From assembly GCA_919902505.1 (NCBI GenBank), contig CAKKRE010000012.1, positions 62,001-126,000 of the forward strand: a stretch of 64,000 nt of DNA, given 5' to 3'. The DNA is from Nitrospiraceae bacterium. GTDB taxonomy: Bacteria; Nitrospirota; Nitrospiria; Nitrospirales; Nitrospiraceae. Positions within the stretch are counted from its first letter, which is position 1; the number at the start of each line of letters is the position of its first letter. Shown piece by piece: positions 3,192-16,218 of this stretch. The position numbers were made by a program, and so were the translations under genes. Under the pieces are notes generated by a model. It searched no databases. It was given only the letters and a program-made list of their open reading frames with translations, and was not told the DNA's origin.

Positions 3192-3926
3192 ATGGCGAAA
3201 CATATCATCAAGAGAATCGTGATGGCTGCACTGACCGTGACCTGCATGGGTGCGGCTGTTCCCGCATCGGCCAATACCGAGGTGGAAACGGCCGAATTGC
3301 TCATCAAGTTGTTGCAGGTCGGCCGTGGCGTGATTTCCGAACACCAGGCCACGATCAATGACGCCGGCAAGGGCGACAAAGGGTTTAGCGGAGACTTTGT
3401 GTCCAATCAGGTGATCGAACGATTTCGCAAAGCCACCAAGATCGATTTGAGCCGGCCCGCCACGGTTCCGCAAGCGCCGCTGTTTCTCGCCATGGTGGAA
3501 TCCGAAAAAGAAGTCATCGACGAGGCGCAGCCCGTCATCAATAAGCAGGGCGTCGGCTTCAAAGGGATTATCCCGGCCGTCTTCGCCCGCAAGTCCGGCG
3601 AGCGGTTCTATCGGAAAACCGGAATTCGTCTGAAGTTGACGGGCACCGACTATCGGTTTCCCGGCAATCGGCCGGACGAGTTTGAGTCGGAAGTGTTGAG
3701 GATTTTTGCCGACACGCGCCATCCGAAAGGCCAGCCGTACAGCAAGGCCACGATGTTGGACGGCAAGCCGGTCCTGCGCATGATGGATCCGGAGTACGCG
3801 GCGACCACGTGTCTGAGCTGCCATGGCGGTCCGAAAGGGGAGCGCGACATCACCGGCGCGAAGAAAGAAGGGTGGCATGAGGGCGATCTGGCCGGGGCGA
3901 TCAGTATCGTGATTCCCATGCGATAG
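3192..3926 (+). CDS. Exported DUF3365-family c-type haem protein
   Basis: A 244-residue protein with a Sec signal peptide (basic start, hydrophobic stretch at residues 8-22, cleavage likely after ASA about residue 27). The body matches the DUF3365/Tll0287-like sensor fold: a helical N-terminal part, then the stretch AQPVINKQGVGFKGIIPAVF, and a single haem-c motif CLSCH (Cys207, Cys210, His211) followed by GGPKGERD. Such domains are PAS-like periplasmic haem sensors, often the input part of receptors. Here the domain stands alone just upstream of a chemosensory cluster, so it may deliver a redox or gas signal to that receptor; that link is inferred from position. Confidence 0.8.
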   Translation: MAKHIIKRIVMAALTVTCMGAAVPASANTEVETAELLIKLLQVGRGVISEHQATINDAGKGDKGFSGDFVSNQVIERFRKATKIDLSRPATVPQAPLFLAMVESEKEVIDEAQPVINKQGVGFKGIIPAVFARKSGERFYRKTGIRLKLTGTDYRFPGNRPDEFESEVLRIFADTRHPKGQPYSKATMLDGKPVLRMMDPEYAATTCLSCHGGPKGERDITGAKKEGWHEGDLAGAISIVIPMR

Positions 3927-3990: not shown

Positions 3991-4353
3991 ATGAGCAAGA
4001 TCGTTGTCGTCGATGATTCGTACGCCGAACTGCAGTTGATCGAAGGCTATTTGAAGTCTGCCAATCACACAGTTGTGTCGTACCCGAACACCGACAAACT
4101 CGAGGATAAACTGGCATTGGATAAGCCGGACCTGATCGTACTGGATGTGGTGATGCCCGGGCGTAACGGGTTCCAGGCCTGCCGCGACCTGAAAAGCGAT
4201 GATCGTTTCAAGGGCATCCCGATCGTCCTCTGCACGTCCAAGGGGCAGGAAAGCGACAAATTCTGGGGCCAGCAGCAGGGTGCCAACGGGTATGTGGTGA
4301 AGCCGTTTAAAGCCGAAGATCTGGTCGCCGCAGTCAAGCGGGCGTTGAACTAA
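3991..4353 (+). CDS. CheY/PilH-like single-domain response regulator
   Basis: A 120-residue receiver domain with nothing attached. The acidic pair DD (residues 8-9), the phospho-acceptor Asp52 in IVLDVVMPG, the Thr/Ser switch in LCTSKG (about residue 82) and Lys104 in VVKPF are all in place, so it should be phosphorylatable. The start has a good GAAGGGGGG-type ribosome site. It lies 3 nt before cheW and opens the chemosensory cluster. The single-domain form and the order REC-CheW-MCP-CheA resemble PilG/PilH of Pil-Chp systems, so it may act on a motility machine or as a phosphate sink. Confidence 0.9.
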   Translation: MSKIVVVDDSYAELQLIEGYLKSANHTVVSYPNTDKLEDKLALDKPDLIVLDVVMPGRNGFQACRDLKSDDRFKGIPIVLCTSKGQESDKFWGQQQGANGYVVKPFKAEDLVAAVKRALN

Positions 4354-4356
4354 TCC

Positions 4357-4902
4357 ATGAGCGACGTGCCAACGATCCAGCCTCACTCCTCAGACTCATC
4401 TCCGGCTCACGGACCCTCTAGCCCATCGAGGTCTCCTGCCGCGTCGATCGAAGGCACGCTGCGTATGTGTGTCCTCACGTTGGGGGGCGAGTTATTTGCT
4501 ATCGATCTCCGCCACGTCAGTGAAGTGTTTGAGGTGGAATCGGTGACCGTCGTGCCCAGCATGCCCAGCCTGTTGACCGGAGTGACCAATCTTCGGGGAA
4601 CGGTCGTTACCCTGGTCGATCTGCGAGGAAGCCTGGGGCTGTCCGTGACCGGGACCGCGCTGCCTTTCGCGGTCGTGATTCGCCATGGCAGCCGACAGGT
4701 GGGAGTGCTCGTCGATCACGTTCCTGAAATTCACACCGTCAGTCGTGAGCACCTGCTGCCGGCCATGCAAGCGGGACCGGCGGGGGCGCGTCCTTGTGTC
4801 TCGGCAGTGCTTCGCCTGGACGAACGTCTGGGGGGAGTGCTGGAGGTGCCGCAGGTCTTTGCACAGGTTGACGGAGGGAGTGCGATATTGTCGATCGCGT
4901 AA
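4357..4902 (+). CDS. CheW-type chemotaxis coupling protein
   Basis: A 181-residue CheW-fold protein. After a Ser/Pro-rich N-terminal extension of about 35 residues come the hallmarks of the coupling domain: CVLTLGGELFAIDLRHVSEV, the conserved LTGVTNLRGTVVTLVDLR hinge and GVLVDHVPEI. It links the receptor to the CheA kinase. It starts 3 nt after the receiver gene and precedes the receptor gene, which fits a PilI-like role. The disordered N-terminal extension is unusual but common in larger CheW variants. Confidence 0.9.
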   Translation: MSDVPTIQPHSSDSSPAHGPSSPSRSPAASIEGTLRMCVLTLGGELFAIDLRHVSEVFEVESVTVVPSMPSLLTGVTNLRGTVVTLVDLRGSLGLSVTGTALPFAVVIRHGSRQVGVLVDHVPEIHTVSREHLLPAMQAGPAGARPCVSAVLRLDERLGGVLEVPQVFAQVDGGSAILSIA

Positions 4903-4997: not shown

Positions 4998-6872
4998 ATG
5001 ATCGGGCAAGGCGTCAAGAATCGATTCCAGGACATGAAAACAAAGACGAAGCTGCTGGTCAGCTTCGGTCTCGTGAGTGTCATCATCATGATCATGGCCA
5101 GCGTCGGTGTGTTTACCCTGCGCCAACTCAGCAGTCAGTCGCAAACGGTGTATGCGGACTATACGGTGCCGCTGGCTGAGTTCGCCCAGATGGGAACCGC
5201 GTTGACCAAACACCACCAGATTCTGCTGGATGTCGCGTCCGCTACCAAACAAGGCGACTTCGCCCAGGAAGTGACCAAGTTGCCGCCCCTGAAGGCCCAG
5301 ATCGACAAGGTGGTGAACAACTATAAGAGCACGACGCTGCGCGTATCGCGATCGGGCCGGGACGAGGCGAAGGATCTGACCCTCTTTGAACCGGCATTGA
5401 AAAAATACTTTCAGGATGCCGACGGCGCCCTGAGCGCCATGGCGGATAGTTTCGATCGTAATGTCCTGTCATCGACGCAAGCGGAGCAAATGCGGGCCCT
5501 CGGTATCCTGGCCGTAACGGTCAATTTGACGCCCTCATTCGAAAATGCCGTCAAACGCCACAATGAGCAGGTCACGGCCATCGAGGCCGTCGCCAAGGAC
5601 CTCAACGATGATGCGCAAGGCCTGGCCAACAACGGTACCCTGATTCTGGTGGCCGGCGGTTTGGTCGCCGTGGCACTCGGATTGTTCGTCGGATATCTGT
5701 TAGCGACGTTCCTCTCCCGGAGCATCAGCCACATCGCCAATGTCGCGACGCAGGCCGCCGGCGGCAATCTACAGGCCCGCGCGAAAATTCAGTCGCACGA
5801 TGAGTTGGGCCAGATGGCCACCGCGTTCAACTCCATGCTCGATCGTATTACCGCCCTGGTCTCGACGGAGGAAGAGCGCGACCTGATGCAGAAACGGCTC
5901 ATGCAATTCCTCGTGCTGGTCTCCGAAGTCGGTAAAGGAGACTTGACCCGGCGAGGCGAAGTGACGGCCGACATGTTCGGCAACCTTGCGGACGGGTTCA
6001 ACCTCATGATCGCGCGGTTCGGACAATTGTTGAAGCAGGTGCGCGAGGCGGCCGATCGGGTGAACAAGTCAGCCGGTACCCTGCGGGATTCAGCCGGTCA
6101 CATGTCCGGAACAGCCCGGGCGCAGGCGGAAGAATCCGTGCGTACGCTGGGCGCGGTCGAACAGTTGGCTGCCGGTATGCGTCAAGTGGCCACCACGGCC
6201 GGCGCATCCTCCGACTCCGCCAAGCAGGTGCTGTCCGCCACGGAGCGCGGCAACGTCGCGGTGCAGGAAACCGTGCGCGACATGCAGAGCATCCGGTCGG
6301 CAGTGCAACGTATGTCCAAGCAGGTGAAGGGCCTCGGTGACCGTTCACTCGAAATTTCACAAATCGTGTCGACGATCCGCGATATCGCCAATCAAACGAA
6401 CCTGCTCGCGCTCAACGCCGCCATCGAGGCGGCCGGCGCGGGTGAGGCCGGTGCACGATTCGCCGTCGTCGCCGACCAGGTCCGAAAGCTGGCGGAAAGC
6501 TCCACACAAGCCACACGTGAAATCGCCGACCTCGTGAAAGTGATTCAAACGGAAACGCAGGATGCCGTGGTGGCCATGGAGCACGAAACGCAGGCGGTGG
6601 AAGCCGGATCCGCTTCGGCCCTCCGGACCGGCGACGTGTTCGCTGAAATTTCAGACATTGCAAAACGGTCTTCCGAGTTGGCCCAGAACATCGCGAGCGC
6701 GGCGTCCGAGCAGACCGCCTCGACGGAAAAGGTCGGTCGAGCCATTAAGGAGTTCACCGGCGGCGCCGTGGCGACGCAGAAGCAGACGGACTCGACGCGA
6801 CTTACGATCGAAGACATGGCAAAACTGGCCGAAGGCCTCAACTCTTCGGTCGCTCAGTTCAAGCTCGCGTAA
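4998..6872 (+). CDS. Methyl-accepting chemotaxis protein with two HAMP domains (PilJ-like)
   Basis: A 624-residue receptor. The first membrane helix spans about residues 15-38, followed by a four-helix-bundle-like periplasmic part (about 40-210) and a second membrane helix (about 213-238). A HAMP domain starts with [13 protein letters not shown] and a second HAMP-like unit contains [13 protein letters not shown]. The signalling hairpin carries the tip sequence [19 protein letters not shown] and continues as [28 protein letters not shown]. The tip is canonical in form, so CheA/CheW binding is expected. No CheR/CheB genes lie nearby, so methylation is doubtful. A GGAGG-type ribosome site precedes the ATG at 4998. 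Confidence 0.92.
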
Positions 6873-6924: not shown

Positions 6925-9900
6925 ATGAGCGCTGATTTCGATCGCGACCAGTTGCTGGACATTTTCGTGGCCGAGGCCGGCGACGATATGGGGCGCTTCT
7001 GGAAAGCGTTGCATCCCGATGGGAAGGCGCATCCGGAGCCGAGCGACGTCGCCGAGTTTCACACGGTCGGCCACAAGCTCAAAGGCGCGGCGCTCCTCTA
7101 TGGGTTCCCGGCGCTCGGGCAACTCGGGGCCTTACTCGAAGATACACTCGAACGTGTGCAGGAGATTCCGGCGGCGCGCTGGCCCGAAGCCATGCACCTG
7201 ATGCGCGAGATTGCCGCGTCCTTTCGAGAGCAGGTCGAGCAGATCGGGCGTGGGGGAGGGGAAGATGCCTCCGTGGTTGAGGGATTTGTCCGACGCCATT
7301 CCGACTTGATGCCGGCCGTTTCGAGCGACTCGTCGGCCGCGTCTGTGCAGCGTTCCGATCAGCCGACGGATGAGTACCTTATTCCTGTCCTGGACGAAGA
7401 GTTGCTGTCCTACTTCTCGCCGGAGGCAGAAGAATACCTCGACACGATTCAGACCCTGCTCAGACGGTTGGAATCCGACCTGGCAAATGCCGACACGATT
7501 CATCAATTGTATCGGGTGGCACACACGCTGAAAGGGTCGGCCTATACCGTTGGATTTGAGGTCGTGGGAGATGTCGCTCATCCGATTGAATCCTGCATGG
7601 TGGCCGTTCGTGAGTGCGCTGTGACGATCGCGCCGCATTGGATCGCCGTTCTGCGGCAGGCGGTGGACGTGATCCGTTCCCTGATGGCGCGGGACGCTCA
7701 ATCATTGGCCCGCTTGCGTCAGGAGGTGCCTCGTATCAGGACGATGCTCAGAGAATTGGAGCAGGGCGTGAGTCAGGGTGAGTCTGGAGCGGCTGCCACT
7801 GCGATGAGCCGGCCTGAAGAGACGTCGATCCAGGAATCCGTGCCTGCGGCCTCATCCGGTCCCGAATCCGTCGGGCACTCCATGAGCGAGGCGGACTCCG
7901 GCGAGCTCTCCGAGGCCTATTTGATCCCGGCCCTCGATTCTGAGGTGATGTCCTATTTCGCGCCGGAGGCGCAGGAGTATTTGGAAAGCCTTGAAGCCGA
8001 CTTGCTGCGTGTCGATAAGGACGCGGGCAATCCCGACACGATCCACCAACTGTTCCGCACGGCCCATACGCTGAAAGGCTCGGCTTATACCGTGGGCTTT
8101 CAGGCGATCGGTGATCTGACTCATCACATCGAAGATTTCATGGGCGCCGTTCGGGAAGGGCAACTGGAACTGCTTCCGGGTCATACGGATGTGTTGCTGC
8201 GCGCAATCGATGTCATTCGCGCCTTGATGCGACGGGACTTATCCATGGTGGGCCGGACGAGACAACGGTTTGCGAATTCCTTGCAGGAGTTGAAGCGACT
8301 GGGACAGGCTCAGCTGGCACCGGACCAAGATCACCACATCGTCTCATCGATTGCCGAGGGCGCCTCGGTGGAAGAAATTCGCGAAGCCGACGGACAGGAT
8401 TCGGCCACAGGCGTCGATGGAAAGACCGGCGAAGAGCGGGAGGTGATCCGGGTCAGCCGTGATCGTTTAGAACGCCTCCTCAATCTGGTCGGCGAATTGG
8501 TGATCGATCGCGGCCGGCTGGAGCAGCGGCTCCGCACGTTGGATCAATTGGCCACACAGGTCTTGGCCAACAAGAACCGGCTGACCGATGCCGTAGGTAC
8601 GTTCGAAGACAAGCATACCTTTTCCTTTCAGCCCTCTCCCGTGTCCTCGGGCGAAGCCGCGCCGCAGGCGTATCCTGGCGTCAGTGATTTCGGCAGCCTG
8701 GAATTCGATAAGTACGACGACTTCAACATCCTGGCTCGGCGAATCAGCGAGGTCACAGCGGACATCACCGAATCGATGTCACAGCTCAGCGGATCGATCC
8801 ATCGCGCCCAGGACGACATGGGGTCGCTGCAACAGTTAACCTTGGGGATGCGCGATGAAATTGCACGCGCCCGCATGGTGCCGATCGGGACGCCGTTCAC
8901 GCGATTTCGTCGCGCGGCGCGTGAGATGGCCCGTGCCACCGGAAAAGAAGTCAATTTGGTCACGTCCGGCGAACATACCGAAATCGACACCGGTGTCGTG
9001 GAGCGGCTTGTCGATCCGCTTGTCCATCTGGTCAGAAATGCGGTGTATCACGGGATCGAGCCTGCGGGCATCCGTCTCAGCCAAGGGAAGCCGGCGGCGG
9101 GTACGATCTATCTCCACGCCGCGCATCGAGGGAACTCGGTGCTCATCGAAGTCGAGGACGATGGAGCAGGGCTCGACATCGCCAAGATCAAGGCCAAGGC
9201 GGTCAAGCTGGGTCTCGTACGCGCGGATGTTGCGGACTCACTGCCGGAGAGCGAAATCATCAAGTTCATCTTCCTGCCGGGATTTTCCACTGCCGATGCG
9301 GTCGGGGATCAAGCCGGACGCGGCGTCGGTATGGATGTGGTCAAGCGGGTCATCGAAACGATGAACGGCCATATCGAAGTGGAATCCGTCTACGGGCAGG
9401 GCACCAAGTTCACAATGCATTTGCCGCTCACCCTCTTGATCGCAACGGCGCTGCTCGTTCGGGTCGGAAAGGAGCGCTATGCGATTCCGCTTCCGAGCGT
9501 GCGTGAGGTCACGATGTCGACGGCGTCGACGATCCAGCAGATGGGGGATCGATCGGTGCTGCGGATCGGCGACGAAGCCATTGAGGTCTATCCGCTCGGC
9601 AGCCTCATTCGCCGGGATGCCGGCACCATCGACGGGGCGACTCCCGTGGTCGTCGTTCGAACCTCGACCGGCGCGCTCGGCTGCGCGGTCGATGAATTGC
9701 TGGGCCGGCAGGAAATCGTCATTAAATCACTGGGCGGGCTGAAGCCGTATGAACGGTCCGTGTTCGGTGGCGCGACCATCGACCCCGAGGGGCGTGTGGT
9801 GCTGGTTCTGGACGTCAGCCGGTTGACGACTCGCGAATATCGTGAGGCCATGTCGGTCATTCAAAACCCCGCCACCTCGCCGATGCTTGAGGGACCGGCC

Positions 9901-10314
9901 CAGCCCGCTTCGCCGCAGAGTCCGGATACGCAGCTTCCGCTGTTGCTGATCGATGACTCGCTCAGCATCAGAAAGTTTGTCGGACGCATGCTGGAATCCG
10001 CCGGGTATACCGTCGACACGGCGACCGACGGGGAAGAAGGCTGCCGCAAGGCATTGGTGCAGCAGTACCAGCTCATCATCACCGATCTCGAAATGCCGAA
10101 GTTGAACGGCTTTGAAGTGATTCAGGCGCTTCGCGCCAGGCCGCAGACTCAGACCACTCCGATTCTCGTCATGACCACCCGGGCGGGTGAAAAGCATCGT
10201 CAGATGGCCGTGAGTGTAGGGGCCTCAGGGTACATTGCCAAGCCGGTGGAAGAACGCGCCCTGATCCAAGAGGTTCGCAAGTGGACGGGCCGTGAAAGCG
10301 TCGTCAAAAAATAG
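6925..10314 (+). CDS. CheA hybrid histidine kinase with three Hpt domains and a receiver (ChpA-like)
   Basis: A 1129-residue kinase. Three Hpt domains carry the phospho-acceptor candidates His50 (GHKLKGAA), His200 (AHTLKGSAYTVGF) and His381 (identical motif). Then come the P3/dimerisation part (about 505-670), an HATPase domain with N-box HLVRNAVYHG (about 701-710) and G-boxes EDDGAGLDI and GRGVGMDVV, a CheW-like P5 domain (about 835-975), and a C-terminal receiver with phospho-acceptor Asp1054 and Lys1106. The P2 domain of flagellar CheA is absent. Hpt2 and Hpt3 are near-copies, including the lead-in stretch (YLIP, two residues, D). Architecture points to the Pil-Chp or alternative-function class rather than flagellar chemotaxis. 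Confidence 0.94.
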   Translation: MSADFDRDQLLDIFVAEAGDDMGRFWKALHPDGKAHPEPSDVAEFHTVGHKLKGAALLYGFPALGQLGALLEDTLERVQEIPAARWPEAMHLMREIAASFREQVEQIGRGGGEDASVVEGFVRRHSDLMPAVSSDSSAASVQRSDQPTDEYLIPVLDEELLSYFSPEAEEYLDTIQTLLRRLESDLANADTIHQLYRVAHTLKGSAYTVGFEVVGDVAHPIESCMVAVRECAVTIAPHWIAVLRQAVDVIRSLMARDAQSLARLRQEVPRIRTMLRELEQGVSQGESGAAATAMSRPEETSIQESVPAASSGPESVGHSMSEADSGELSEAYLIPALDSEVMSYFAPEAQEYLESLEADLLRVDKDAGNPDTIHQLFRTAHTLKGSAYTVGFQAIGDLTHHIEDFMGAVREGQLELLPGHTDVLLRAIDVIRALMRRDLSMVGRTRQRFANSLQELKRLGQAQLAPDQDHHIVSSIAEGASVEEIREADGQDSATGVDGKTGEEREVIRVSRDRLERLLNLVGELVIDRGRLEQRLRTLDQLATQVLANKNRLTDAVGTFEDKHTFSFQPSPVSSGEAAPQAYPGVSDFGSLEFDKYDDFNILARRISEVTADITESMSQLSGSIHRAQDDMGSLQQLTLGMRDEIARARMVPIGTPFTRFRRAAREMARATGKEVNLVTSGEHTEIDTGVVERLVDPLVHLVRNAVYHGIEPAGIRLSQGKPAAGTIYLHAAHRGNSVLIEVEDDGAGLDIAKIKAKAVKLGLVRADVADSLPESEIIKFIFLPGFSTADAVGDQAGRGVGMDVVKRVIETMNGHIEVESVYGQGTKFTMHLPLTLLIATALLVRVGKERYAIPLPSVREVTMSTASTIQQMGDRSVLRIGDEAIEVYPLGSLIRRDAGTIDGATPVVVVRTSTGALGCAVDELLGRQEIVIKSLGGLKPYERSVFGGATIDPEGRVVLVLDVSRLTTREYREAMSVIQNPATSPMLEGPAQPASPQSPDTQLPLLLIDDSLSIRKFVGRMLESAGYTVDTATDGEEGCRKALVQQYQLIITDLEMPKLNGFEVIQALRARPQTQTTPILVMTTRAGEKHRQMAVSVGASGYIAKPVEERALIQEVRKWTGRESVVKK

Positions 10315-10360
10315 AAACGAGTTGTCGATTCGTACCGATCTTGGCAGAAGAAGGACAGGT

Positions 10361-10933
10361 ATGGGACTCCGGGGACATAAGACAGCAGTGGTGTCGAGCG
10401 GGCTGGCGGTACGGTTTCTCGTGGCGCTCATGGGCTCCACGCATGTGGCCTTTCCCTCCCGTTGGGTTCGAGGCATTGTCATCCCGGCTGAGGGGGGGCA
10501 GGACGGGCACGCCACCTGCGCCAATGCTTCCTACGAACGCACCGATCTTGCCCGTCGTTTGACGATCCAGGCCAAGGGTGTCACCTCTGAGACCCGGATC
10601 GTGCTGTATGCCAATGAGCAACGGTCGCGGTCCTTTGTGGTGGACAAGGTCGTGGGCCTCATCGATGTCGAACGAGCGCTGATCCAGCCGCTTCCTGCGC
10701 AGTTTCGAGGAGGGGAGCGGGAGCGATTGCTTGGATTGTTTGTCGAGTCGTCGTATATCGCCCTCATTGCCAATCCGTTTTGGGTGCTCGAGCTTCCGTC
10801 TCAGAATAATGTTTTGGATGTGTTTGCCCTTCAGGTTTCAGAACGCCGGCCGGGAGAATTCGATTCCAGGCTCCGCTTGCCTTCGTCCGTACTGGAAGCC
10901 ACACCGGTAATGTCAGCCGGAGCAACGAAGTAG
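10361..10933 (+). CDS. Divergent CheW-like protein
   Basis: A 190-residue protein, using the ATG at 10361, which has AAGGACA eight nucleotides upstream; an upstream in-frame start at 10292 would overlap the kinase gene. The central part resembles a CheW fold (VRFLVALMGSTHVAFPSRWVRG like a CheW strand pair, then RIVLYANEQRSRSFVVDKVVGLIDVERALIQPLP like the CheW hinge and second barrel), but conserved CheW glycines are missing. It sits between the kinase and a more typical CheW, so it is probably an accessory coupling or inhibitory subunit. Family assignment is by pattern and context. Confidence 0.6.
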   Translation: MGLRGHKTAVVSSGLAVRFLVALMGSTHVAFPSRWVRGIVIPAEGGQDGHATCANASYERTDLARRLTIQAKGVTSETRIVLYANEQRSRSFVVDKVVGLIDVERALIQPLPAQFRGGERERLLGLFVESSYIALIANPFWVLELPSQNNVLDVFALQVSERRPGEFDSRLRLPSSVLEATPVMSAGATK

Positions 10934-10948
10934 TTCGGAGGATCGACT

Positions 10949-11425
10949 GTGTTACGTGCTCAGCTACGCAGACAGTCACACACGGGCATGAAAGGCGCTG
11001 CTGAGGCGCGGATGCAGAATATGGTCGTCTTTTCGGTCGGAGGGCAACGGTTGGCCGCCAGAACCGATGAGATCGGCGGTGTCATGCCCTGGCCGGGCTC
11101 GACGGCGGTCCCTAGCGATACGCCGTTTGTGACTGCGCTGGTGCGGCAGGAGAAGGGGTGCCTTCCGGTGTTCGACCTGGCGGCAAAATTCAACCGCCCC
11201 ATGCAGGATGATGAGCCGCTGTGTCTGGTTGTCAAACATGTGGAGGGACCGCTGGCAATCTGTATCGATTCCCAGGTTCCTTCCTTGCACATGGTGTCAC
11301 GCTCGGCAGTGCAGTATCGCGCCGGCAACGATCCCGACATCGCGGGAACGTGCATCGCCGGCGAAGAAGAACTTCCTATCATCAACCTGACAACCTTGGG
11401 AGTCTCATCGAACCGTCCCGCGTGA
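10949..11425 (+). CDS. CheW-type coupling protein
   Basis: A 158-residue CheW-domain protein starting at GTG 10949, which has CGGAGG eight nucleotides upstream. Visible features: MVVFSVGGQRLAARTDEIGG as first strands, TPFVTALVRQEKGCLPVFDL as the hinge region (the usual LRG is LVR here), and CIDSQVPSLHMV as the second-barrel region. The cluster thus has three CheW-like genes plus the CheW domain of the kinase; the copies may serve different array positions. It lies 28 nt before the receiver/coiled-coil gene. Confidence 0.78.
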   Translation: MLRAQLRRQSHTGMKGAAEARMQNMVVFSVGGQRLAARTDEIGGVMPWPGSTAVPSDTPFVTALVRQEKGCLPVFDLAAKFNRPMQDDEPLCLVVKHVEGPLAICIDSQVPSLHMVSRSAVQYRAGNDPDIAGTCIAGEEELPIINLTTLGVSSNRPA

Positions 11426-11453: not shown

Positions 11454-12944
11454 ATGCCAAAGATCTTGATTGCCGACGACAGTATCGCAGTCCGTAAGGT
11501 AGCCGAGCGTCTCCTGACAGAGGCCGGCATGGGGGTGACACTGGCGGCGAACGGATCGGAGGCTCTGGCGCTCTTGAGTAAGGATCGCCCAGACCTCATC
11601 GTGTCCGACGTCATTATGCCGGACAAGAGCGGCTATGAGGTCTGTGCGTTCATTCGGGGACAGGCAAACCTCGCGGATCTCCCAGTACTCCTGATCAGCG
11701 GTATTGTGAACGATGAAGTGTCCCGGCAAGCAGAATCCTGTAAGGCCGACGGAGTCTTGAAGAAGCCGTTTCAGGGCTCCTCGCTCAAGGATCGTGTGCT
11801 GGACCTGCTGATGAAGCGCCCACAAAAGCCTGCTCCGATGCCAGAAGCGCCGCAGACGCAAACGGCCGTGGAACCATCCACCGTGGCAGAGGTTGCGGCC
11901 GTACCCGCCGCGCATGTGCCGGAAGAAATAGCAGTACCCCGTGCAGAAGCCCAGGAGCAGCGGCTGTCGCTCGAGCCGATCACGATCAGTGTTGAAGACC
12001 CTCACGCCATACCGGCGACGATGACCCGCGATACGATCGTAGATGCGGCCCCCGCATTCCATGCCGCTGAGCCGACTCCGTCGGCGCATGACGATGAACA
12101 TCATCTGGCAATCCTGGCGGAACGTGACAGGCGAATCGGCGAACTCGAAGCGCAGTTGGACGAGGAGCGTCGGCGGAGTCTGGAGCAAACCCAGCAGATC
12201 GGGCACATCCAGGGTGTGTTGGATGAGCAGCACGAGCAGGTTGCAGCCCTGTCGTCCCACGCACAAACATTGGACCGGAGTCTGGCCGACGAGCGGGCGC
12301 AGCGAACCGCTCTCGCAGACCAATTGGATGAAGTCTCGAGGCAGATACACCGGATCGGTGAACTGGAGGCGACTTTGGCCGATGAGCAACATCGTGCCCA
12401 GCAATTGTCTCAACAGGTTTCGGAAGGGGCCCGCCACGCCGCGCGCATCGTGGAATTGGAGGCCCATCTGGAGGCTGAGCGGGAAGCGGCGAATCAATTG
12501 GTGCAACAGATTGCCAATCTTGAGCAGGTCGAAACGCGCGTCCACGAGCTTGAAACGACCCTGGCGGCTGAACGTGAGCAAGCAGAGCTGCAGCGGCGGG
12601 AGCGTGTCGAGCTGGAACAAAGTGCAGACAAGGTGCCGGTGCTGGAAGAGGCCTGTGCGAAAGCCCATGCTCAGATCGTTGAGCTCGACGCCGCGCTCTC
12701 GGCGGAACGCGAGGCTGCAGCGGCTCTGCTGATTCAGGTCAAGCAGTTGGAAGCGACAGCGCAACGTGCCAGTGAGTTGGATCTCGCTCTTGTGAGCGAG
12801 CAGGAGCGTTCGATGCAGCTCGAGAAACGGGCGATGGAAGCCGAGCACATGGCGGAGCAGTCGACTCGCCGGTTCGAAGATATGGCGAGGAAGCTGGGGG
12901 AGATCGCGGGGCTGGCCTCCCAACTCGGTAATGGAAAACGCTAG
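11454..12944 (+). CDS. Response regulator with long C-terminal coiled coil
   Basis: A 496-residue protein. Residues 1-122 form a complete receiver (acidic pair DD at 8-9, phospho-acceptor Asp52 in IVSDVIMPDKSGYEV, Lys104 in VLKKPF). A Pro/Ala-rich linker (about 123-215) leads to about 270 residues of Leu/Glu/Gln-rich heptads with recurring blocks of the form RIGELEA-Q-LDEERRR, ELEATLADEQHRAQ and ELETTLAAEREQAE, expected to form an extended parallel coiled coil. No output enzyme or DNA-binding domain is present. It may act as a phosphorylation-controlled scaffold or polar localiser for the chemosensory array; this is inferred from shape only. Confidence 0.85.
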   Translation: MPKILIADDSIAVRKVAERLLTEAGMGVTLAANGSEALALLSKDRPDLIVSDVIMPDKSGYEVCAFIRGQANLADLPVLLISGIVNDEVSRQAESCKADGVLKKPFQGSSLKDRVLDLLMKRPQKPAPMPEAPQTQTAVEPSTVAEVAAVPAAHVPEEIAVPRAEAQEQRLSLEPITISVEDPHAIPATMTRDTIVDAAPAFHAAEPTPSAHDDEHHLAILAERDRRIGELEAQLDEERRRSLEQTQQIGHIQGVLDEQHEQVAALSSHAQTLDRSLADERAQRTALADQLDEVSRQIHRIGELEATLADEQHRAQQLSQQVSEGARHAARIVELEAHLEAEREAANQLVQQIANLEQVETRVHELETTLAAEREQAELQRRERVELEQSADKVPVLEEACAKAHAQIVELDAALSAEREAAAALLIQVKQLEATAQRASELDLALVSEQERSMQLEKRAMEAEHMAEQSTRRFEDMARKLGEIAGLASQLGNGKR

Positions 12945-12979: not shown

Positions 12980-13951
12980 ATGGGCCAGAAGCAGGGTGCC
13001 ACTGTGTCGACCGAACCAGAACTGACCGAAGACGATTTTCAAAAAGAGCTGATTGAACTGTTCGGTCAAGAGGCACAAGAGTGGCTCATCCAGATCCATT
13101 CCGCCCTGACCGAACTTGAAAGCCAGCCGGATACCGATCGGCATGCACAACTGGTGGATGCCGTGGTGAGAGGCATCACCAGTCTCGGTGGTTCTGCCGC
13201 CACGGTGAACCTCCCCGATGTCGAACGTACCACCTTCGCGCTGCTGCCCTTCATCGACACCCTGAAAGATCGGACCACGGCGACCAAGCAGGATTTCGGC
13301 ACGGTCCGTGAACAGTTCTGTCTCGTCATCGCGTCCGTGACGATGGCCACTGGCATCACGCTGGACCTTGGTCCTGCGCAGGCCACGCCTCTACAACCGG
13401 AGCTGGCCATCGATTTCCTCACGCTCCTGAACGCGCTTCGCATGCTTCAAGACGAGGCGGCTGCTAAGGGGGGCTCTTCCCGCAGTTTGATTCCACAAGT
13501 CATGCATCGATTGGAGCAGGAAGCGAGACAAGGGGAGAGCCAGATACAGATCACCGCGTTTCAGCAACTGCTGGACGAGCTTCACAGCACGGATGCCCGA
13601 TGCCTCGACTCGCTACGACAAGCATTGCCCGGCATTGCGCAGAACCTGAACAGGCTTCGGGTCGAGGGCTTGACGGTGTTGGAACCCGACAACGTGCTCG
13701 GCACATGCATGCAACAGATCCAACAACTCCAGGGCATTGCCAAGCAGGTCAATGCCACCCCGTTGGTGACCTTTCTCGCCGGCCTTCAGAACTTCCTGTC
13801 CTTGATGATCCAGCGTCGTATCGTGATCGCGTCCCAGCGTGTCCAGGCGGTCGAAGCACGCATTCTCGCCGTGATGACCACGATCGAGGACTGGATCACC
13901 GCCGGACAACAGGAACGTGATCTGATGAGCCGCCTGCTGCCTGTCGCCTGA
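12980..13951 (+). CDS. His-less Hpt-like protein of the chemosensory cluster
   Basis: A 323-residue protein. Residues about 23-90 look like an Hpt helix bundle (LFGQEAQEWLIQIHSALTEL, then ITSLGGSAATVNLPDVE), but the phospho-acceptor position that aligns with the His of HTLKGSA is Thr67, so phosphotransfer through that site is unlikely. A second helical part (about 125-323) follows. The whole protein resembles the C-terminal 330 residues of the next gene, including the ending (ER, then LLPVA versus ILPMA). I do not recognise a named family. A role as a docking or regulatory element for the CheA/REC proteins is inferred from position. Confidence 0.75.
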   Translation: MGQKQGATVSTEPELTEDDFQKELIELFGQEAQEWLIQIHSALTELESQPDTDRHAQLVDAVVRGITSLGGSAATVNLPDVERTTFALLPFIDTLKDRTTATKQDFGTVREQFCLVIASVTMATGITLDLGPAQATPLQPELAIDFLTLLNALRMLQDEAAAKGGSSRSLIPQVMHRLEQEARQGESQIQITAFQQLLDELHSTDARCLDSLRQALPGIAQNLNRLRVEGLTVLEPDNVLGTCMQQIQQLQGIAKQVNATPLVTFLAGLQNFLSLMIQRRIVIASQRVQAVEARILAVMTTIEDWITAGQQERDLMSRLLPVA

Positions 13952-14148
13952 GGAAGCTCCTTACAGTGTGCGACCGGCCAGGGCAGAACCTTCAAGAGAG
14001 AGTTCGTCGAGTTGAAGGTGCCTCCCCGCCGTGGGGATCGGTTCGGACGGCTTTGCGGATCCGCGTGAGCCGGAATATCGGACCATGCAAAGGTGGACAC
14101 AAAGGCGTGCCGCGTGACGAAGCGCGTGAGGCTGGAGGCTAAGAGGAA

Positions 14149-16218
14149 ATGGAGCAGAATCACTATCGGCAGGCTGAGGATGCGCTGATGAGGGTCACTG
14201 CCGCCGTGCAACGGCAGGAATCGGTGAACCTGACGGAGTTGACCCAGCTGGCCGGCAGCATCGTCGAGTCGATTCAGGAAAACGATCAATTAGTCGTTGA
14301 AGCCCTCTCTAGTCCTGTCGGCCCTCCGCTGGTTACCAATCTAGTCAATGTGAGCATTCTCGCGACGAAGGTCGGGATCGGCCTCGGCTATTACGGCGCA
14401 GAGTTGCGGCGTCTGGCGTTGGCCGGGCTCCTGCATGACATCGGAATTTTTGCCGTGCCGCAGCATTTGCTGACGAAGACCGGCCGCCTGAGCGCCGATG
14501 AGCGGGCTCTGGTCGAGCAACATCCGCGCTTGGGGTATGGGGTGATCGAACGTCTCGGCGCGGACTATGCCTGGCTGGCAGAGGTGGTCTTGCAGGCCCA
14601 TGAGCGCGGGAAGGGGCAGGGGTACCCGAATCGTTTGAAGGGGCGTGAAATCAATGAGCTGGCGCAGATCATCGGGCTTGTCGATATCTTCGATGCGTTG
14701 GTCAGTCCGCGCCCCTACCGCCGGCGCCTCCTTCCGCACGAGGCGATCCGCGAGTTGTTGAACACGGAACGTACCGCGTTTCCCCGTGAAATCATGAAAG
14801 GGCTGGTCGAGCAACTCTCGGTCTATCCGCTGGGCACCAAGGTGCGCCTGAGCAGCGGCGAAGAAGGTGTGGTGGTGCGCATCATGCCTCGATACCCATC
14901 CCGTCCTGTCCTCCGTGTGAACGGTTCACAGGAGGCAGCTGTATCCGACCCGCCGCGATATCTCGATCTCAGCCTCTTGCCGCATGTATCGGTTGCAGAG
15001 ACGGTCGATCCGCCGGTCTTGGAGCGCGTCACTTTCGCGGCCGCACCGGTAGCGGTCGAACCCGCCACGCCCCCGACGAGCGCATCGGATCAGTTTGCCG
15101 CCTTACTCGAAAGTCTGGATGCGATTGCCGGTGTGATTCAGGCCGCAGTGGAGCAACCTAATGCGGCTGCGCAGGTCCAGTCGGCTATTGAGGCGCCTGA
15201 CCAGGAGGGGTCGCATGTCCGTCGGGAAATTCTCGGCCTGTTCGTATTGGAGGCCCGTGAATGGCTCAATCAGATTCAGACGGCGCTTGAACGGCTCGAC
15301 ACGACAAGTGAACAGGGGCGCCGCGCCAAGTTGACGACGATTTTATGGCAGAGCGTCAGCAACCTCGCCCGATCCGCCGCGACCGTCGGTCTGACGGCCG
15401 TGGAGGACATGGCGACTCGACTGCTGCCGCTCCTTCAGGCCGCCGCAAAACATGAGCGCACTGTGGCGGCCAATCACGTGGCCTCGCTTCGAGAAGGATT
15501 GCTCGACATCAGTAAGATGGTGCAGGCGCTTCAGGCAGTCGAGCGGCCACCCCAGAATCATCTCGAAGCTGCCGTCGCTGTGCAACAGCCGGTGACTGCA
15601 ACGCCTGAGCCGATGGTCGCTGAAGTGTCGGCGCCCGTCGAGGTTGACGTTCCGGATGAGGTACCTTCCGCCTCCTTGCCGGCCGCATCCATTCTTGATG
15701 CCTTGCGGCAGTTGCATCACGCGCGAGGTCGATCACTGCAACCGGTGCGCGATGTGCTGGAAACCGTGATTCAGCGCGCCGAGCAGGAGCTGGAGCGAGG
15801 GACGACCGTGGTGGATGCACGTGCCGTCGGGCGACTGTTGCAGGAGCTGGATGAGTTGGACGAGCGATTTCTCGCGCACATGCAGGCGCATATCCCGACG
15901 GTGATCGCCACGCTCAGGCATGTCGCTCTCACCAGTGAGGATCGCATATTTCCACCCCAGGCGTTGGAACCCATTTTTGTCGAAATTGAGGCGCTTTCCG
16001 CTGCGGCCGAACGGGTGGCCGCGGCGAATATCAGTCTGTTCCTGCATGGCCTCCGCACATTCCTCCGCGTCACAGCTCAGCACAAGCCGACGGTCATCCG
16101 AGAGCGACTGGCAGCCGTGGAAGAACGATTGGCGACGCTCATTCCGCTGGCCCAGCAATGGGTCGATGTCGGCCGCGTGGAACGGGCGGCCATTTTTGAC
16201 ATCCTCCCCATGGCGTAG
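14149..16218 (+). CDS. HD-GYP protein fused to a His-less Hpt-like module
   Basis: A 689-residue protein. Residues about 60-225 are an HD-GYP-type phosphodiesterase domain: HD pair His96-Asp97 in LLHDIGIF, His125 in EQHPRLGYGV, His151-Glu152 in AHERGKGQGYP, and Asp179/Asp182 in VDIFDAL. The usual double His of HHExxDGxGYP is Ala-His here and the D of DG is Lys, so metal binding may differ. A short beta-rich part (225-280) and linker follow, then an Hpt-like bundle (about 358-430, Ser404 where His should be) and a helical tail, both paralogous to the gene before. Probable c-di-GMP phosphodiesterase or sensor output of this chemosensory system. AGAGGAA precedes the ATG. Confidence 0.85.
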   Translation: MEQNHYRQAEDALMRVTAAVQRQESVNLTELTQLAGSIVESIQENDQLVVEALSSPVGPPLVTNLVNVSILATKVGIGLGYYGAELRRLALAGLLHDIGIFAVPQHLLTKTGRLSADERALVEQHPRLGYGVIERLGADYAWLAEVVLQAHERGKGQGYPNRLKGREINELAQIIGLVDIFDALVSPRPYRRRLLPHEAIRELLNTERTAFPREIMKGLVEQLSVYPLGTKVRLSSGEEGVVVRIMPRYPSRPVLRVNGSQEAAVSDPPRYLDLSLLPHVSVAETVDPPVLERVTFAAAPVAVEPATPPTSASDQFAALLESLDAIAGVIQAAVEQPNAAAQVQSAIEAPDQEGSHVRREILGLFVLEAREWLNQIQTALERLDTTSEQGRRAKLTTILWQSVSNLARSAATVGLTAVEDMATRLLPLLQAAAKHERTVAANHVASLREGLLDISKMVQALQAVERPPQNHLEAAVAVQQPVTATPEPMVAEVSAPVEVDVPDEVPSASLPAASILDALRQLHHARGRSLQPVRDVLETVIQRAEQELERGTTVVDARAVGRLLQELDELDERFLAHMQAHIPTVIATLRHVALTSEDRIFPPQALEPIFVEIEALSAAAERVAAANISLFLHGLRTFLRVTAQHKPTVIRERLAAVEERLATLIPLAQQWVDVGRVERAAIFDILPMA

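Follow-up and report, generated by a model that had tools for sequence, protein, structure and literature searches.

Hpt-like modules without a phospho-acceptor histidine, one of them fused to a degenerate HD-GYP domain, in a chemosensory cluster of Nitrospiraceae

We analyzed a stretch of 64,000 nucleotides from a Nitrospiraceae bacterium (assembly GCA_919902505.1, contig CAKKRE010000012.1, positions 62,001 to 126,000; hereafter the window), in which two neighboring genes next to a chemosensory kinase encode proteins with a common Hpt-like module. The first protein, P0001, consists almost entirely of the module, and the second, P0002, carries it behind an HD-GYP domain. The module has the homology and the fold of an Hpt domain, the phospho-acceptor and its supporting residues are lost across the family, the genes are linked to the kinase, and both proteins are under purifying selection. 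Judged from alignments, the HD-GYP domain has lost catalytic residues throughout the family and has kept the residues that contact cyclic di-GMP (c-di-GMP). The best explanation, to which we assign a probability of about 0.58, is that P0001 and the second half of P0002 act as docking modules of a Chp/Pil-like cluster, derived from an Hpt domain (CheA P1-like) that has become incapable of phosphotransfer, and that the HD-GYP domain is a c-di-GMP receptor. The two proteins and their parts are as follows (window coordinates).

12980..13951, + strand: P0001, 323 amino acids, stand-alone pseudo-Hpt protein (open reading frame (ORF), BLASTP, Pfam, AlphaFold2)
13028..13354, + strand: Hpt-like bundle of four helices in P0001, residues ~17-125 (AlphaFold2 helices, VIA-align to 1tqg, residue counts)
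13397..13948, + strand: second helical part of P0001, residues ~140-323, ending in LLPVA (AlphaFold2 helices)
14149..16218, + strand: P0002, 689 amino acids, HD-GYP domain with the second module copy behind it (ORF, BLASTP, Pfam, AlphaFold2)
14326..14778, + strand: HD-GYP domain of P0002, residues ~60-210 (Pfam HD_5, E-value 3e-28; residue alignment to PmGH)
15205..15537, + strand: Hpt-like bundle of P0002, residues ~353-463, with Ser404 at the acceptor position (AlphaFold2 helices, profile match to 2ld6)

A shared Hpt-like module without the acceptor histidine

BLASTP aligned residues 13-323 of P0001 with residues 350-689 of P0002 (26% identity, 45% positives, 95.5 bits, E-value 5e-26). The common module thus comprises ~300 residues, nearly the full length of P0001 and residues ~346-689 of P0002, and the two proteins also align in their C-terminal tails, QQERDLMSRLLPVA and RVERAAIFDILPMA. 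Among close relatives, the ratio of nonsynonymous to synonymous substitution rates (dN/dS) was 0.17-0.24 for P0001 and 0.09-0.21 for P0002. Because these values (0.09-0.24 overall) indicate purifying selection, both are functional, non-decaying proteins. The same values and the wide conservation of the proteins rule out that the sites described below were lost through pseudogene decay.

By sequence and by AlphaFold2 prediction, the first part of the module is an Hpt bundle. The Pfam Hpt profile matched P0001 past its curated cut-off (E-value 9.4e-7) and matched 23 out of 23 diverse orthologues (best E-value 1.3e-13); on the single P0002 sequence it reached an E-value of only 0.005. When searched against the PDB, the family profile of P0002 retrieved the CheA P1 structure 2ld6 (E-value 1.7e-5) and that of P0001 retrieved CheA P1 chains (E-values 6.3e-5 and 1.2e-4); the CheA P1 structures reached by the two profiles are 2ld6 and 1tqg. 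The only NCBIfam match on P0001 was to CheA, under the cut-off. AlphaFold2 predicted an Hpt-like bundle in both proteins, with helices at residues 17-47, 52-75, 79-93 and 103-124 of P0001 (model pLDDT 85) and at residues 353-385, 389-413, 416-434 and 437-463 of P0002. VIA-align superposed the P0001 bundle on the P1 domain of Thermotoga maritima CheA (1tqg) with a Z-score of 13.6 and a root-mean-square deviation of 2.4 over 104 residues; helical bundles can attain Z ~13 unspecifically, and this comparison supports an Hpt fold only jointly with the sequence matches. With all of the P0001 model as query, Foldseek returned no hit at E <= 0.001, and its top rows were designed or unrelated helical bundles. 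For this reason the assignment of an Hpt fold rests on the CheA P1 match taken together with the sequence matches.

The remainder of P0001 (residues ~140-323) is predicted to form a further helical bundle, with AlphaFold2 helices at residues 146-162, 171-183, 191-229, 239-256, 260-279 and 285-317. As a candidate second Hpt domain, this half matched the Hpt domains of kinases with an E-value of 0.01, but reversed-profile controls scored about as high or higher, and we make no claim of a second Hpt domain.

In the alignment, the position of the acceptor histidine is occupied by Thr67 in P0001 and Ser404 in P0002. We assessed this position across the family by aligning 65 stand-alone proteins and 3 fused-module stretches with L-INS-i; the 68 rows have Thr in 58 cases, Ala in 7, and Asn, Ser and Gly in one each. 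The 65 stand-alone orthologues have Thr (56), Ala (7), Asn (1) or Ser (1), and the 32 fused copies Thr (20), Ser (8), Asn (2) or Gly (2). None of these stand-alone or fused modules has a histidine there. Another alignment, made automatically from 60 members, put a few other residues at this position in the most distant rows, and still no histidine. The positions of Lys51 and Glu70 of CheA P1 have changed as well. At the former, stand-alone copies have Gly or Met (Gly70 in P0001) and fused copies Ala or Gly; at the latter, stand-alone copies have Leu, Ile or Val (Leu89 in P0001) and fused copies Leu or Phe. Where CheA P1 has His67, the relatives of P0001 mostly have Phe (Phe86 in P0001 itself) and the fused copies Thr or Ser; this position is variable in the Hpt domains of kinases too. 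For the kinase Hpt domains of the same clusters, we found the acceptor His in 129 out of 129 and the Glu in 126 out of 129.

The only homologues found with an intact histidine were CheA kinases from other classes of the phylum, which matched weakly and lie outside the two-part family.

The initial annotation had described a ~300-residue module common to the two proteins, their similar tails, an Hpt-like bundle in its first part, and Thr67 and Ser404 at the histidine position. All of this was borne out. It had also asked whether Thr or Ser replaces His in all members; His never occurs, and some lineages have Ala, Asn or Gly.

An HD-GYP domain with degenerate catalytic residues

The N-terminal part of P0002 belongs to the HD-GYP family in sequence and fold (Pfam HD_5; structures 4r8z, 4mcw, 9rbz and 3tm8). 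In the PDB, the HD-GYP family profile ranked PmGH first, and the best match to the single P0002 sequence was DvhD (E-value 3.6e-17), a degenerate HD-GYP protein that binds c-di-GMP without hydrolyzing it (PMC13090378). Aligned to PmGH, P0002 has Asn64 in place of H189, Ile100 in place of K225, Ala150 in place of H276 and Lys155 in place of D281; it keeps H96, D97, H125, H151, D179, the GYP, R188 and R191 (P0002 numbers). PmGH numbers are used below.

We compared 78 orthologues, including the fused proteins and separate HD-GYP proteins of the same locus, both of which show the same losses. In all 78, H189 is replaced by Asn, H276 by Ala or Val, and K225 by Ile, Leu or Val, so that no member has the full set of metal ligands with Lys225. 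E185 is mostly Pro and D281 mostly Asn or Lys. The residues that contact c-di-GMP are retained: Y285 in 78/78, R314 in 77/78, K317 as Arg in 77/78, and I294 as Ile or Val. Catalytic residues are gone and the nucleotide site is kept. Among the nine HD-GYP domains of the genome, one of which (L177) aligns unreliably, only that of P0002 lacks both H189 and H276.

In PmGH, changing H189, H276 or K225 to Ala essentially abolished activity (PMC4159591). The HD-GYP domain of P0002 is probably not a working phosphodiesterase, and the likeliest reading of the residue pattern is a c-di-GMP receptor. We favor a receptor over turnover because H189, H276 and K225 are lost in every orthologue while the nucleotide contacts are kept. 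The proposal in the initial annotation of a coupling to c-di-GMP turnover is not supported, with two metal ligands (H189 and H276) and K225 gone in all 78.

Two points weigh against a pure receptor. Five of the eight metal ligands remain (H221, D222, H250, H277 and D305), and the cited literature treats RpfG as an active phosphodiesterase even though it has neither E185 nor H189 (PMC4159591). Because of this, a residual, weak or altered activity of the domain is possible. Taken further, the domain might be an active phosphodiesterase, for c-di-GMP or another cyclic dinucleotide, with an unusual metal site and with the pseudo-Hpt module coupling its activity to the kinase. Such a reading has the invariance of the HD, H250, H277 and D305 ligands on its side, and RpfG gives it a precedent for a variant metal site. 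However, H276 and K225 are lost here too, at positions where Ala abolishes the activity of PmGH, and in the other eight HD-GYP domains of the genome H189 and H276 are both matched by His (although the alignment of L177 is unreliable). We consider an active enzyme unlikely.

Another HD-GYP domain of the genome (L175, G000 contig C23) seemingly lacks the equivalents of H250, Y285 and D305 in a provisional alignment.

Gene cluster, distribution and history

The genes upstream of P0001 form a Chp/Pil-type chemosensory cluster, with a multi-Hpt hybrid CheA that contains a REC domain, a methyl-accepting chemotaxis protein (MCP), CheW proteins and two response regulators.

3991..4353, + strand: single-domain (CheY-like) response regulator, conserved at the far end of the cluster, candidate docking partner (Pfam)
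4357..4902, + strand: CheW-like coupling protein (Pfam)
4998..6872, + strand: MCP with 4HB, HAMP and MCP signal domains (Pfam)
6925..10314, + strand: CheA-type hybrid kinase with three Hpt domains, H-kinase_dim, HATPase, CheW and REC (Pfam)
10292-10933, + strand: diverged CheW-like protein, the third of the cluster, encoded after CheA and ahead of the second CheW (23.0 bits with Pfam CheW, against a cut-off of 23.5)
10949..11425, + strand: CheW-like coupling protein (Pfam)
11454..12944, + strand: REC domain with a long heptad-like tail, conserved neighbor, candidate docking partner (Pfam Response_reg, E-value 2.7e-22)

The order of the cluster is response regulator, CheW, MCP, multi-Hpt hybrid CheA, CheW, REC-coiled-coil protein, P0001 and HD-GYP protein. 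All three Hpt domains of the kinase carry His. The initial annotation had placed the two genes beside a CheA/CheW/MCP cluster, and we found this placement to be conserved: an ORF with a CheA core lies upstream at all loci with enough upstream contig, and the five exceptions are contigs that begin <= ~3 kb before the gene. The protein at 11454..12944 adjoins P0001 on its upstream side, and its tail of ~370 residues is probably a coiled coil; Pfam identified no output domain in it. This REC-heptad protein is always found beside P0001, with a length that ranges from 226 to 574 amino acids across genera. CheR was not found in the cluster, and the only CheR of the genome is encoded on another contig. 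The type of cluster, the location of CheR and the presence of type IV pilus-type ATPases in the genome hint at a possible role in pilus control.

A group of genomes (L059, L061, L062, L075 and L076) has a reduced cluster, with a shorter CheA and in which the second CheW was not found; their acceptor position is Ala or Ser and the motif has decayed further. Just upstream of the cluster (3192-3926, + strand), and in the same place in several genera, lies a gene for a Tll0287-like protein (PF11845) with a CLSCH motif, possibly a haem-bearing sensor.

The P0001 and P0002 genes occur in one conserved cluster across Nitrospiraceae and relatives. The window comes from a Nitrospira in the same genus as Nitrospira defluvii, whose complete chromosome (FP929003) encodes a P0001 orthologue with 90% identity. 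In the genus of N. defluvii, P0001 was present in all 29 genomes examined, and matches to the P0002 module were present in all but one of them, a partial genome. In a sample of the phylum, P0001-like proteins were found in most members of the family Nitrospiraceae, and one more family of the order has weaker relatives that match over the full length. Deeper lineages have one copy of the module and no HD-GYP.

A maximum-likelihood phylogeny of 45 modules divided the Nitrospiraceae copies into two supported groups, one stand-alone and one fused, and the single-copy deeper lineages and an early fused copy (L126) were positioned around the node between them. The tree suggests that the module was probably duplicated once, long ago; because it is midpoint-rooted and has some long branches, it does not fix the exact origin of the duplication. 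A duplicate confined to this genus is ruled out by fused copies in several genera. One clade has the HD-GYP gene and no module fused to it. The module was probably lost there, because the clade nests inside the stand-alone clade, beside lineages that bear the fusion. In this clade, the HD-GYP protein would need to act in trans with P0001.

At one locus, an ORF of 269 amino acids (L045:10071-10880) separates the P0001 orthologue from the HD-GYP gene, and several other genomes have a gap of similar size; Pfam gave no match on the first 60 residues of this ORF. At another locus, the ORF of the fused HD-GYP and module (L127:10091-13171) has 1027 amino acids, compared with the usual ~700.

Docking, sensing and known systems

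A point against a dead phosphotransfer site is that the Thr found at the acceptor position in 56 of the 65 stand-alone proteins could be a phosphorylatable residue. The modules would then be Ser/Thr phosphotransfer (Xpt) domains as in ChpA, in which either the kinase of the cluster or a Ser/Thr kinase would phosphorylate Thr67 and Ser404, with P0001 acting in a relay. The presence of Thr or Ser in 28 of the 32 fused copies fits this scheme, and ChpA does have both Ser and Thr Xpt domains; according to a review, however, no phosphorylation has been observed at those domains (PMC5812489). In addition, several lineages have Ala, Asn or Gly at the acceptor position, and the Lys and Glu that support a phospho-histidine are gone as well. 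We regard phosphotransfer through these residues as distinctly improbable. We give the least credence to the proteins being structural parts of the array, with bundles that pack on the kinase or coupling proteins and neither dock regulators nor sense nucleotides, since this would agree with the strict linkage to CheA, CheW and MCP genes and with the conserved second helical bundle, but leaves the kept c-di-GMP contact residues and the specific Hpt ancestry unexplained.

Docking by phosphotransfer-dead Hpt modules is the best fit because the bundle has no histidine, the loss extends across the family and the linkage to a multi-Hpt CheA is constant. The initial annotation had proposed pseudo-Hpt docking proteins that couple the kinase to c-di-GMP turnover; by analogy with FimL we keep the docking, and for turnover we substitute sensing as the likelier function. 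In FimL, the acceptor sites of the Hpt-like domains both carry Gln; the protein recruits PilG jointly with ChpA, binds a polar hub, and ties the Pil-Chp system to cyclic AMP (cAMP) (PMC3019171, PMC10519157).

If the pseudo-Hpt bundle retains a REC-docking surface, it could bind one or both response regulators of the cluster (CheY-like at 3991, REC with coiled coil at 11454) or the kinase; the cluster supplies REC domains in the two response regulators and in the kinase itself. P0001 and P0002 would then hold or titrate a regulator without phosphate exchange, as FimL does with PilG. The degenerate HD-GYP domain of P0002 would sense c-di-GMP, which would make the sequestration of the regulator by P0002 dependent on c-di-GMP. 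We tentatively suggest a more specific scheme, which we consider less likely than not, with two pseudo-enzymes in one protein. The pseudo-HD-GYP receptor would toggle the fused pseudo-Hpt module between a free and a regulator-bound state, c-di-GMP would set how much regulator can be phosphorylated by CheA, and P0001 would be a constitutive competitor.

If docking and sensing are both correct, the cluster connects a chemotaxis-type kinase directly to c-di-GMP through proteins that are all non-catalytic relatives of signaling enzymes. The idea behind FimL, a pseudo-Hpt domain as a dock for a regulator, would then also apply outside Pseudomonas and related bacteria and, besides cAMP, to another cyclic nucleotide. 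The system is conserved in Nitrospira, which are nitrite oxidizers of global importance, and counts of HD-GYP domains would overstate the number of phosphodiesterases in such genomes.

The initial annotation knew of no described system of this build. In the part of the literature covered, we found no paper that describes such a build in Nitrospira, and none on the combination of a pseudo-Hpt module with a pseudo-HD-GYP domain; the statement holds only in part, since the components have precedents in FimL, in the Ser/Thr domains of ChpA and in DvhD. The module belongs to the same fold and sequence family as the P1 domain of T. maritima CheA (1tqg), whose acceptor His, Lys51 and Glu70 are all replaced in it. 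Like the Xpt domains of ChpA, the modules are of the Hpt type, have Ser or Thr where His would stand, and occur with a multi-Hpt hybrid CheA. The ChpA domains sit within the kinase, whereas P0001 and P0002 are separate proteins whose families include Ala, Asn and Gly variants. The HD-GYP domain resembles that of DvhD of Desulfovibrio vulgaris in the loss of catalytic residues. DvhD has SQ for HD and MN for HH (both His of HHE lost), while P0002 still has the HD and one of the His residues. DvhD is a membrane-located regulator of adhesion with PAS and HD-GYP domains, whereas the HD-GYP domain of P0002 is fused to a pseudo-Hpt module.

In build, as described, FimL of Pseudomonas aeruginosa is also close: there too, a His-less Hpt-like domain belongs to a protein distinct from the ChpA-type kinase to which it is linked, and a chemosensory system is tied to a cyclic nucleotide (cAMP for FimL, c-di-GMP as proposed here). 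FimL is described as homologous to the N-terminus of ChpA. FimL has two Hpt-like domains, whereas the module described here has one clear Hpt-like bundle and a distinct second bundle, and unlike in FimL the gene has been duplicated and one copy fused to an HD-GYP domain.

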